Below are positions 3,364-46,844 of a stretch of DNA of 48,702 nucleotides, one piece after another. The stretch spans positions 1-48,702 of the forward strand of contig CAJWZE010000007.1 in the NCBI GenBank assembly GCA_913049845.1. Direction: 5' to 3'. Every line of letters starts with the position of its first letter. Within the stretch, counting starts at the first letter, position 1. This stretch comes from an uncultured Cryomorphaceae bacterium. Its GTDB lineage: Bacteria > Bacteroidota > Bacteroidia > Flavobacteriales > Schleiferiaceae. The notes under the pieces were generated by a model. The model was not told the DNA's origin. It ran no database searches and saw only the letters and a list, made by a program, of their open reading frames with translations. Both the position numbers and the translations under genes were made by a program.

Positions 3364-4929
3364 ATGACCACTTTTCTTAGGCGCTTCATCATATTGATTG
3401 CTTGTTGTTTAGTTGTAACAACAGGGCTTGCACAGGGTTCATATCCCTTATTAGAATGGAGTCCGGAGTACAATGCTCGAAGTGCAAAATTTGATCGAAT
3501 ATTACAGTCAAGCGAACAGGGATTCTTCACCTATAGACCTGCTGCAGCATCTATTATTTCTGGTGCGCGAGATGAATATTTCGCCTACTACAACCGTTAC
3601 GATTTAAGCGAACAATGGTTGCTTAAGAATCCAAGGTGGGAATGGAACGGGCGTAGAGTGAATTTTAAACAAAGCCTAATGCTAGGTAGTATTCAGTATT
3701 TATTCTACGAAAGCTACGACCGTCAATCGGACACCAGGAATTTACTAGTACGGACTTTAGATACTCTTGCTAATCTGAGTGTACCAAAGTTGATAGAGAC
3801 TTTAGATACTAAAAGACGGTCTCAAGGTGAATTCATCATCAAAGCGACACAGGATCGATTGAAATTTGCAGTATTCACCAATCCGCCCTTTGAGCGTTTT
3901 GGGAGTGAAAACTTTTACGTTAGAGTTTACAGTGCGGACCTTGAAGAGGATTGGAATGCAGACATAGAACTCAACGTACGTGACCGTAATTTCAATATCA
4001 TAGATTTTGATTTAACGAATTCCGGGGATGTTTTCATTCTTAGTGTTTTTGACAACAGCCCCAATGTGATGTTACAGACGGGGAAAGATGTAGATTATAA
4101 GCTAATGCGTATTGGTGCTGGTGACAATAATCAAATCACAGAATTCGATCTAGGCTTGCGCAATGTGGCAGTACATTCGTTGGGAATAGAATGCGACCTA
4201 AAGGACAACCAAATGGCCATCTCTGGATTTTATGGAAAGCGTAACGTCTACGATATGGACGGCGCACTCTATCTAAGTGTTGATCAAAATAAAGGAGAGG
4301 TCATTTCGACCAATTTGAATATTTTCACTCAAGAATTTGTAGCGCAGTTTAATCGCTTCAGAGCGCGAATTGGAAAAGGTATTCGCAGGAACTTTGTCTT
4401 TCGACAGTTTCTGCCAAGACCGGATGGTGGTGCGTATGTAATTGCAGAGGATTACGAGGTACGAGTGCAGACTGTACAAACTTCACGAGGAACGACCACT
4501 ACAAATTATTACTATTACTATAATGATATCATCGTACTTAGTATTGATGGTAAGGGCGAAGTCGATTGGTACGCTCATATTCCCAAGCGTCAAAGTTCTA
4601 TGAATGACGGTGGTTATTACCTTGGTTACACCTTCTTGGTGAATGATTCCGGGTTGCACTTTGTGTACAACGATCACCGAAAGAATGCTAAGCGTTGGGG
4701 TCATAAAAGACTACGTGCTATAACTAATGCAAAGAATGGCAATCTTGTAATGGTAAGTTTAAGCCATGATGCAGAGATGGTTTACACAGTATTAAATAGA
4801 AACAAGCGCCAAAAATTTAGAGTAAGCCCTCGTTCTTCCAGACAAGCAAATGATGGTTATGACGGTGCAGTTCTCTTATCTTTGCGGGGCACCCGTATAA
4901 GATTCGGGAATCTTTATTTCGAAGAATAA
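3364..4929 (+). CDS. Secreted protein of unknown function, first gene of the mpl-pyrRB-rnz operon
   Basis: 521 residues. The N-terminus has an arginine-containing charged start, a hydrophobic stretch and an AQG cleavage-like site near residue 24, so export is likely. The mature part is rich in strand-forming and aromatic residues, with a Tyr run (YYYYYND) near residue 380, and reads like a beta-propeller or similar all-beta fold. I do not recognise a family or catalytic motif. The basic C-terminal third ends with a LRFGNLYF-type strand. Its TAA is immediately followed by the mpl ATG with no spacer, so the two are almost certainly on one transcript. A cell-envelope role is only a guess from that linkage. 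Confidence 0.7.
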   Translation: MTTFLRRFIILIACCLVVTTGLAQGSYPLLEWSPEYNARSAKFDRILQSSEQGFFTYRPAAASIISGARDEYFAYYNRYDLSEQWLLKNPRWEWNGRRVNFKQSLMLGSIQYLFYESYDRQSDTRNLLVRTLDTLANLSVPKLIETLDTKRRSQGEFIIKATQDRLKFAVFTNPPFERFGSENFYVRVYSADLEEDWNADIELNVRDRNFNIIDFDLTNSGDVFILSVFDNSPNVMLQTGKDVDYKLMRIGAGDNNQITEFDLGLRNVAVHSLGIECDLKDNQMAISGFYGKRNVYDMDGALYLSVDQNKGEVISTNLNIFTQEFVAQFNRFRARIGKGIRRNFVFRQFLPRPDGGAYVIAEDYEVRVQTVQTSRGTTTTNYYYYYNDIIVLSIDGKGEVDWYAHIPKRQSSMNDGGYYLGYTFLVNDSGLHFVYNDHRKNAKRWGHKRLRAITNAKNGNLVMVSLSHDAEMVYTVLNRNKRQKFRVSPRSSRQANDGYDGAVLLSLRGTRIRFGNLYFEE

Positions 4930-42920: not shown

Positions 42921-43523
42921 TTGACCCAAGCCCACGTAAACGTTGCATTATTGAAGAGCAAGTTGATTGATTTGTTGCATCCAGACCAAAGAGGTCTTGT
43001 GCGTAATGTAAAGCTTTCTAGATACGTCCAAACTTTTATTCAGCAGCCAGGTATATTTCAGTATTCAGCCATAGATATACATGATTGTATATGTGTTTTA
43101 GTGCGTGGAGTCATTGGAGTCAAACACGATTTTGAAGGTCGCGAAGCGATAACACACTTCTACCAAGAAGGCGATTTGTTCTTATCAACGGAAATAGATA
43201 ATGTATATAATAAACAGGGGAGCTATTGGAGAATTTATGAGGATATCGAAATGCTCTTATTACCCTTAAAATCGGATATGTGGCAGCAAGAACAGCCACT
43301 ACTGGCCAGTGCATTAAATGTTCAAGCTTCATTGATGGCGGCCTTTACTTATCAGAAGTTCATCAATAATCTCGGTCTAGATCGTAAAAGTTACAGCTTG
43401 GAATGGTTAAAAGCTAATAAACGACTTTTGAGCCTGGTGCCGAGAATGGATATAGCCAACTATCTGGACATCTCAAAGTCATCTTTAAAGTCATATATAA
43501 AAATAGCATTTAACGATGGCTAA
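42921..43523 (+). CDS. Crp/Fnr-like regulator, short form (first of an overlapping pair)
   Basis: 200 residues from a TTG start (only an ATT at 42918 is available before the upstream stop). A cyclic-nucleotide-binding-type beta roll is seen from about 45 to 110 (CICVLVRGVIGVKH, then YQEGDLFLSTE). A C-terminal helix-turn-helix, MDIANYLDISKSSLKSYIK, is near 176-194. The chain is about 20-30 residues shorter than typical Crp, lacking most of the final wing. Ligand residues for cAMP are not evident. It is divergent from alkB and overlaps the second regulator by 8 bases. Confidence 0.75.
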   Translation: MTQAHVNVALLKSKLIDLLHPDQRGLVRNVKLSRYVQTFIQQPGIFQYSAIDIHDCICVLVRGVIGVKHDFEGREAITHFYQEGDLFLSTEIDNVYNKQGSYWRIYEDIEMLLLPLKSDMWQQEQPLLASALNVQASLMAAFTYQKFINNLGLDRKSYSLEWLKANKRLLSLVPRMDIANYLDISKSSLKSYIKIAFNDG

Positions 43524-44106
43524 GAAAGGAGATTTGATTATCGCAAAAAGGCTCAGTCAATTAACAGGTTTCCCTGAAAAGACTCCTTTTTTCATTGAAT
43601 TTTCGGCCTTGTTTGAAGGACCTATTCACTTTGAAGCGCACGAAAACTTGTGGAAGATGGGTGACAAGGAAGGATACCTTTGGTATATACATTTTGGCTA
43701 TGGTTTTGACCGCATTCTGCTCGAAGACGGAACAAAGATGCTCAATGGGATGACTGAGCCAGGAATCTTTATCTGTGATGAAAATAGTCTATTGTGGGGT
43801 GGTCCGGCTAAAACCGATTCCATTATGTATACTCCGGGTTCGGCATATAGAATTAGTTACAGAGAATGGAAGAATTTTGTCATTATAAACGATCCGATGC
43901 GAAATGTTCTACTGCACATTAATTCACACTTCGTTCAAATGAGAAAGCTCCGTCTACTCAAGATGAAGATGATGGATAAGGTAGAATATTGGAAATACAT
44001 CCAAGAAAGATTTTCAGGCATAGAAAAATATTGTTCTCAGACCGAGATCGCGCGGTATTTTGGTGTAAGTAAAAGTACGATGCACCGCATTATGAAAACT
44101 GCCTGA
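43516..44106 (+). CDS. Crp/Fnr-like regulator, short form (second of the pair)
   Basis: 196 residues, ATG 8 bases inside the end of the previous gene. A sensor-like beta region (LWKMGDKEGYLWYIHFGYG, then NGMTEPGIFICDEN) spans about 45-95, and a C-terminal helix-turn-helix, QTEIARYFGVSKSTMHRIMK, ends the chain near 177-195. It is similar in layout to its neighbour but not a close copy, so the pair may form heterodimers or act in sequence. The ligand is unknown. A weak hairpin (44110-44137) follows the stop. Confidence 0.7.
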   Translation: MAKKGDLIIAKRLSQLTGFPEKTPFFIEFSALFEGPIHFEAHENLWKMGDKEGYLWYIHFGYGFDRILLEDGTKMLNGMTEPGIFICDENSLLWGGPAKTDSIMYTPGSAYRISYREWKNFVIINDPMRNVLLHINSHFVQMRKLRLLKMKMMDKVEYWKYIQERFSGIEKYCSQTEIARYFGVSKSTMHRIMKTA

Positions 44107-45910: not shown

Positions 45911-45981
45911 TTATATAGAACAGCTAAAGACCTATTAAGGTTCGGACTTACCTTGTTATGTGCACCTTAGCTCGTGTCGAT

Positions 45982-46113
45982 TTACAATCCTTCCACATTA
46001 TCGTTAATGAAGAGCCCATTGGGTAGCCAGTGTAAGTTATTCCTATCAATGATCTAGGCAGCTTTCCGCCCGTTCGCATCGTAAAGGATAATAGCATATA
46101 CTTGATAATACCA
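45982..46113 (-). pseudogene. Decayed fragment resembling a T9SS type A C-terminal sorting domain
   Basis: Reading the reverse strand from 46113 to 45982 in one frame gives an ILYDANGRKAA stretch, one in-frame TAG (46054-46056), then RNNLHWLPNGLF and a final TAA at 45982. The order (hydrophobic strand, Y/D.NGR, spacer, L..GLYIV-type strand) resembles the end of type IX secretion cargo proteins. No start or upstream domain is left. It occupies a 348-base gap with no other gene; the remainder of the gap shows nothing. Confidence 0.35.
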
Positions 46114-46258
46114 TTATTGCATTAATCCAAAGATGTCAAGGTGTTCACCGGAAAAAACTTTTAACGATTAATCTCTAAAAATTAATGTGAAAAATGATTA
46201 GTACTGAAAATAAAAGTTATGACAACCTACAATTCATAATATTCGTGAAAGGTTCAAC

Positions 46259-46585
46259 TTAGTCGCACCCCTCTCCATATTCAACATCCTTAACTCTATA
46301 ATCCTCACCATAATCAACTATTTTGATCTTATAATCCTCACCGTAATCAACAACCTTCCATTTTCCAACTTCATCCTCACCATAACTAACATATTTAATC
46401 CTAAGGTCTTCACCATAATCAACAAATTTTACGGAGTAATCTTCACCATAATCAACAAATTTTATCTTTCCATAAACATGGCAACCACCGCCAGATGATG
46501 ATGACAAATAGGTAAATGCACTTAATGTTATTGAAAGAAAAATAACAGTGAACAGAATCAATAATTTATTGAAATTAGGTTTCAT
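46259..46585 (-). CDS. Secreted six-repeat YGED protein
   Basis: 108 residues with a signal peptide or signal-anchor (about 8-26). After a Ser/Gly-rich linker, six copies of an about 11-residue unit follow, with YGED at residues 46, 57, 68, 81, 92 and YGEG at 103 (units like KFVDYGEDYSV). Spacing is 11, 11, 13, 11 and 11. The only two cysteines of the mature part, Cys35 and Cys107, bracket the repeats and could close a ring. It resembles the small beta-repeat secreted proteins (Septknot-like) known from Bacteroidota, but I cannot confirm the family. The gene is AT-rich compared with its neighbours. Confidence 0.7.
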   Translation of the reverse strand: MKPNFNKLLILFTVIFLSITLSAFTYLSSSSGGGCHVYGKIKFVDYGEDYSVKFVDYGEDLRIKYVSYGEDEVGKWKVVDYGEDYKIKIVDYGEDYRVKDVEYGEGCD

Positions 46586-46715
46586 TGTATTAAGTTTAAA
46601 ATGAATGTTACTTGTTTACAAGATAACAATTAAAACCCCTTTGATAGCTTATTTCACAAACCGTATATGCAACACAATTGATCTTAACGAAGGGTAGTCA
46701 AAAACTTAAGGGCAT

Positions 46716-46746
46716 AAAAAAGGCTTCCGATATCTTGGAAGCCTTT
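46716..46746 (-). terminator. Terminator of the tRNA-Val transcript
   Basis: A ten-pair stem, AAAGGCTTCC / GGAAGCCTTT (46719-46728 with 46737-46746), with a six-T tail on the reverse strand. It lies 24 bases after the tRNA-Val end. Confidence 0.85.
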
Positions 46747-46769
46747 AAAACACTTAGCTTATAGTGTTG

Positions 46770-46844
46770 TGGGCGATACTGGATTCGAACCAGTGACCCC
46801 CTGCTTGTAAGGCAGGTGCTCTGAACCAGCTGAGCTAATCGCCC
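46770..46844 (-). tRNA. tRNA-Val (TAC)
   Basis: 75 bases fold as a cloverleaf: acceptor GGGCGAT / ATCGCCC with A discriminator, D-arm with AGCTCAGCTGG, anticodon arm CCTGC-CTTACAA-GCAGG (anticodon TAC), T-loop GTTCGAATC. CCA is not encoded. Confidence 0.95.

Follow-up and report, generated by a model that had tools for sequence, protein, structure and literature searches.

A YGED-repeat protein of an uncultured Bacteroidota bacterium as a probable exported member of a bacterial 7_1 torus-knot superfamily

We investigated a 108-residue repeat protein encoded in the window, that is, the whole stretch of 48,702 nucleotides analyzed here. This YGED protein and its close relatives appear to constitute a new, unannotated, exported branch of an already known knotted superfamily. 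The explanation that we favor, and regard as probable overall, is that the protein is exported and belongs to a bacterial superfamily of 7_1 torus knots, which would unite Q9PR55 (PDB 8iwa), the SFPD-repeat proteins, and the DUF6150 proteins, with ends closable by a disulfide, acting as a stable binding module. The gene and the parts of its product are as follows.

46259..46585, reverse strand: gene of the YGED-repeat protein, 108 aa, from the open reading frame and homologues
46511..46585, reverse strand: signal-like sequence, residues 1 to ~25, with a basic N-terminal end and a hydrophobic core, read from the sequence
46481..46483, reverse strand: Cys35, conserved in 17/17
46268..46468, reverse strand: six repeat units, residues 40–106, each a strand K-x-K/V-K-x-V-D and a turn YGE[D/G]
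46361..46372, reverse strand: region with an insertion of two residues that follows unit 3 (EVGK, preceding W76), from alignments
46265..46267, reverse strand: Cys107, conserved in 17/17

After the signal-like N-terminus, the protein reads GGGCHVYGKIKFVDYGED, and its C-terminal end is YGEGCD. The YGE[D/G] motifs start at residues 46, 57, 68, 81, 92, and 103 (spacing 11, 11, 13, 11, 11), and the only cysteines are those at positions 35 and 107. The gene was also the top tandem array of the window (TRF score 102, versus 41 for the runner-up), but its units were only ~75% alike at the DNA level, and not near-identical as a first-pass annotation had described them. Other points of that annotation, namely six units with this spacing, cysteines bracketing the repeats, and possible display outside the cell, held up: 16 other Bacteroidota proteins are identical in spacing, both cysteines are conserved in 17/17 and could seal the ends, and a sequence resembling an export signal is present. 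The fixed number of units likewise fits a compact closed fold.

A scan of the genome collection recovered these 16 Bacteroidota relatives, at 50–73% identity, together with one Clostridia protein (L019). The family set analyzed below (n = 17) comprises the 16 relatives and the window protein, excluding L019. Spacing and both cysteines were invariant throughout the set, a regularity that chance could hardly produce, Cys35 and Cys107 were the sole cysteines in 14 of the 17 proteins, and three close relatives carried a third cysteine at position 75. Since neither spacing nor unit number varied in any of the 17 members, the repeat number is constant and has not changed recently, contrary to what had been proposed at first. 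The dN/dS ratio was 0.034–0.065 in the seven YGED pairs with measurable dS (two further pairs had saturated dS and gave no ratio), which indicates strong purifying selection on the gene. A bacterial lipoprotein was rejected because no lipobox precedes the conserved N-terminal cysteine in any of the 17 homologues: residues −3 to −1 are GGG in the window protein (GGG-C), and GGG, QSG, EGG, SKG, GKG, QKA, DPV, GTA, NTA, or PSH among the homologues.

The distribution of the family was patchy, with YGED matches in 2 of 60 relatives, and an order-wide profile search matched 9 of 395 genomes (three with YGED, three with SFPD-type or hybrid, and three with DUF6150-type proteins). Searches of plasmid and phage collections for the YGED protein returned no match, and no conserved gene neighborhood was found outside close relatives. 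Pfam and NCBIfam contained no true family model for the YGED protein. NCBIfam Shiga toxin B subunit models matched 6 of 18 members (best E = 0.003); we judged these matches to be due to chance because the window protein has none and because they are far weaker than the relation to 8iwa.

The search of genomes with the YGED profile also brought up proteins of the same layout with SFPD, HFPD, or NFPD turns. These unnamed proteins, from Bacteroidota genomes and IMG/VR viral contigs, share the units and the insertion of YGED proteins, and the two profiles aligned essentially without gaps (hhalign, 98.6% probability, E = 1.2e-15, 71 columns). They differ in their cysteines: the pair, when present, lies at the N-terminus and the insertion, and a C-terminal cysteine was found in 0 of 19. 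The IMG/VR contigs with SFPD-repeat relatives (L065-L073, L082, L083, L086) are classed as viral, the proteins on them mostly have a signal-like N-terminus, and the genes may belong to a phage or to host flanks.

The suggestion that DUF6150 (PF19647, which we take to be the family called Septknot) might be related found support at the level of the superfamily, but not of the family. The Pfam model matched neither the window protein, nor its genome, nor any of 18 scanned members, and the units have 11 residues rather than the 13-residue YxxQAD form; these tests thus leave the window protein outside DUF6150. Conversely, the YGED profile found DUF6150-type proteins (E down to 4.6e-7), and profile–profile comparison by hhalign gave E values of 2.7e-5 and 5.4e-6. 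DUF6150 proteins also have six units, a long unit followed by G-x-W, and an exported appearance in Bacteroidota, whereas they differ from YGED proteins in their 13-residue units, YESQAD-type turns, and C-terminal AGW tail. The two groups are further linked by hybrids, L054 and L055, in which YASQAD/YSSQAD, SFPD-like, and YGED/HGED turns occur together in one chain. In L054, the stretch LVEYASQADVRVKIVNSFPDLKVKFVENNADDCGEWEIVEYGEDLKVYITENFPD contains DUF6150-like, SFPD, and YGED turns. Both hybrids carry a cysteine pair at the N-terminus and the insertion. From these similarities, we place YGED, SFPD, and DUF6150 proteins in one putative superfamily, and the hybrids suggest that turns may be exchangeable within a single knotted fold.

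Turn motifs (YGED, SFPD, HFPD, NFPD, YESQAD, YDYQAD) differ by subfamily and are alike inside a protein. This uniformity within proteins and divergence among subfamilies suggests either joint action of the turns on one surface or homogenization. In DUF6150 proteins L020-L049, the turns are likewise nearly uniform in each protein and differ among proteins (YESQAD, YENQAD, NQAYAD, SKYDAD, YDYQAD, WKSDAD), resembling a concerted change of all six turns.

The superfamily includes a protein of solved structure, UU089.1/Q9PR55 of Ureaplasma (PDB 8iwa and four further entries). Its 7_1 knot was first predicted, with a knot core at residues 27–83 (PMC9278004), and then seen by X-ray crystallography (PMC13352647, PMC11223836); this torus knot, with seven crossings, is the most complex solved in any protein. 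When a profile of YGED, SFPD/HFPD, and hybrid sequences, leaving out the Clostridia bridge, was searched against all PDB sequences, 8iwa_A was matched with E = 7.4e-18, and the next entry had E = 1.7. An SFPD-only profile also found 8iwa (E = 1.4e-15, with the register of the match shifted), and L019 by itself matched it over the full length of L019 (E = 6.4e-18). Such values should be read with the caveat that repeats inflate profile scores and blur the register. The YGED-only profile did not reach significance (8iwa, E = 0.34, repeat register shifted), so the link between YGED proteins and 8iwa runs via relatives, namely the superfamily profile and the bridge sequence. L019 (positions 3947-4201 of a Clostridia contig) has YGED repeats, lacks a signal sequence and cysteines, and is the closest 8iwa relative found; a stretch of 58 residues shows a 55% match to P0001.

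The layout of 8iwa agrees with that of the YGED protein in its 11-residue strand-turn units, six strand segments, and insertion after unit 3, whose position is common to the 17 YGED proteins, the SFPD and DUF6150 relatives, and 8iwa. It differs in having SFPD-type turns and ~20 extra N-terminal residues before the core, and in ending at the sixth strand; its matched sequence (residues 5–89) has neither an end-bracketing cysteine pair nor a signal sequence. On this evidence, the window protein very probably belongs to the knotted superfamily and, almost as probably, has a knotted fold, in which the six units would form a small knotted beta structure that has as many strands as 8iwa and its insertion at the same point. 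The knot type is not transferable from 8iwa, because predictions for homologues in the 8iwa group give differing knots, 5_1 and 7_1 (PMC9278004).

How the cysteines lie relative to the knot can be estimated from the alignment to the YGED, SFPD, and hybrid profile, in which profile positions 10–66 correspond to 8iwa residues 27–85 and to window-protein residues 41–97. The knot core of 8iwa thus corresponds to about residues 41–95, with Cys35 ~6 residues before and Cys107 ~12 residues after it. As both cysteines fall outside the mapped core, a single intramolecular disulfide would enclose it and close the knot covalently; untying the chain would then require the bond to be broken. A disulfide between Cys35 and Cys107 seems slightly more probable than its absence. 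The combined reading of a covalently closed 7_1 knot, with a knotted chain whose ends one disulfide joins permanently under oxidising conditions, is more tentative and in our estimate falls a little short of even.

If the closed-knot reading is true, the sister subfamily would instead bridge the same N-terminal region to the insertion. Among 19 SFPD-type relatives, 10 had both of these cysteines, 8 had neither, 1 had only the insertion cysteine, and none had only the N-terminal one (Fisher p = 1.2e-4, kinship ignored). In a two-turn torus knot, we infer, the chain should come back close to where it began, at the insertion (after about one turn) and again at the C-terminus (after two turns), and the cysteine patterns of YGED and SFPD proteins would both fit this picture.

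Cys35 and Cys107 are invariant at both ends of the repeat region, mostly without any other cysteine in the protein, and the signal-like sequence points to a location outside the cell, where lone thiols are rarely kept. These points speak against an account in which the knotted fold is kept while the cysteine pair does not close the loop, being reduced, binding a metal, or bridging two molecules into chains or dimers. We nevertheless regard this account as a serious, if not favored, possibility: searches of the genome, which is 85% complete, detected neither DsbA nor VKOR, the third cysteine at residue 75 in three homologues offers an alternative partner, and another knotted family, the 3_1 Knotted Solenoids, has conserved close cysteine pairs without a disulfide (PMC13123833).

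An unknotted closed beta structure of six units (a ring, short solenoid or barrel, or trefoil-like fold) is improbable. This includes the six-bladed or beta-trefoil ring proposed in the first-pass annotation, which was not supported, as no PDB entry other than 8iwa, a 7_1 knot, is significantly related to the superfamily. Eleven-residue units are, moreover, too short for propeller blades. PDB sequence searches, which are blind to distant folds, returned no match to a solved trefoil or propeller. The fixed unit number and the end cysteines would suit any closed ring, and AlphaFold2 gave no fold and is hence compatible with one: pLDDT was 46 (~35 in the repeat region) with an alignment of only 18 YGED-type sequences, and 32 with only 29 mature YGED and SFPD sequences, both sets having internal repeats. 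A cation-binding surface protein with YGED turns as RTX-like calcium sites, suggested by the acidic ED pair in each turn, is very unlikely, because the equivalent turn in homologues is SFPD, HFPD, or YESQAD without an acidic pair, so that its conserved role is not cation binding, and no match to calcium-binding families was found.

The position of the gene adds to its history, for which three further features are needed.

46149..46761, no strand: 613-bp segment carrying the YGED gene; the closest member of the genus lacks it and has a hydrolase-like gene at the site
45911..46148, reverse strand: degenerate 3' end left over from the hydrolase-like gene that was replaced; identity to G017 is 74%, and it carries an in-frame stop and a 2-base gap
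46769..46844, reverse strand: tRNA-Val(tac) adjoining the segment

The closest genus member, G017 (L098), has an intact hydrolase-like gene (L098:243-1460) between tRNA-Val and a CIA30-like gene. Compared with G017, the window matches at 97% through the tRNA, continues with the 613 bp that are unique to it, and resumes with the decayed hydrolase 3' end at 74%; the AT-rich segment thus stands in place of most of the hydrolase gene. Together with the low GC content of the YGED gene (0.324, whereas the window as a whole has 0.427), this arrangement suggests that foreign DNA took the place of the older gene, which would account for the isolation and AT-richness of the gene, both of which had been noted correctly at the outset. 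The YGED gene therefore looks like a recent arrival. Elsewhere in the window (42921-44106, forward strand), two adjoining Crp-like regulator genes overlap by 8 bases and show weak matches to cyclic-nucleotide domains.

We found no known function for any superfamily member. Q9PR55 reportedly has exceptional stability according to the paper describing it. For the YGED protein, the likeliest job would be that of an extracytoplasmic module that is extremely stable and resists proteases, and its six similar acidic turns may form a multivalent binding surface; the binding role is a guess, and a rather doubtful one.

Open-chain protein knots hinge on a mathematical closure of their ends, whereas a natural closed 7_1 knot, if real, would be a true knot. 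With 73 residues, and with a reducing agent as the switch between its open and closed states, it would make it possible to test what knotting contributes to stability and protease resistance, and also by what path a chain ties seven crossings while it is exported or afterwards. The protein-knot literature that we surveyed describes no precedent for such a knot. The nearest known systems are cyclized YibK and the deterministic knots of KnotProt (e.g., coagulogen, 1aoc), which resemble the closed reading of the YGED protein in being covalently closed knotted loops (PMC8182377, PMC6323932). However, the former is an engineered 3_1 knot and the latter are natural trefoil loops routed through disulfides (PMC8182377, PMC6323932), whereas the YGED protein would be a natural knot of seven crossings with a single disulfide linking its two ends.
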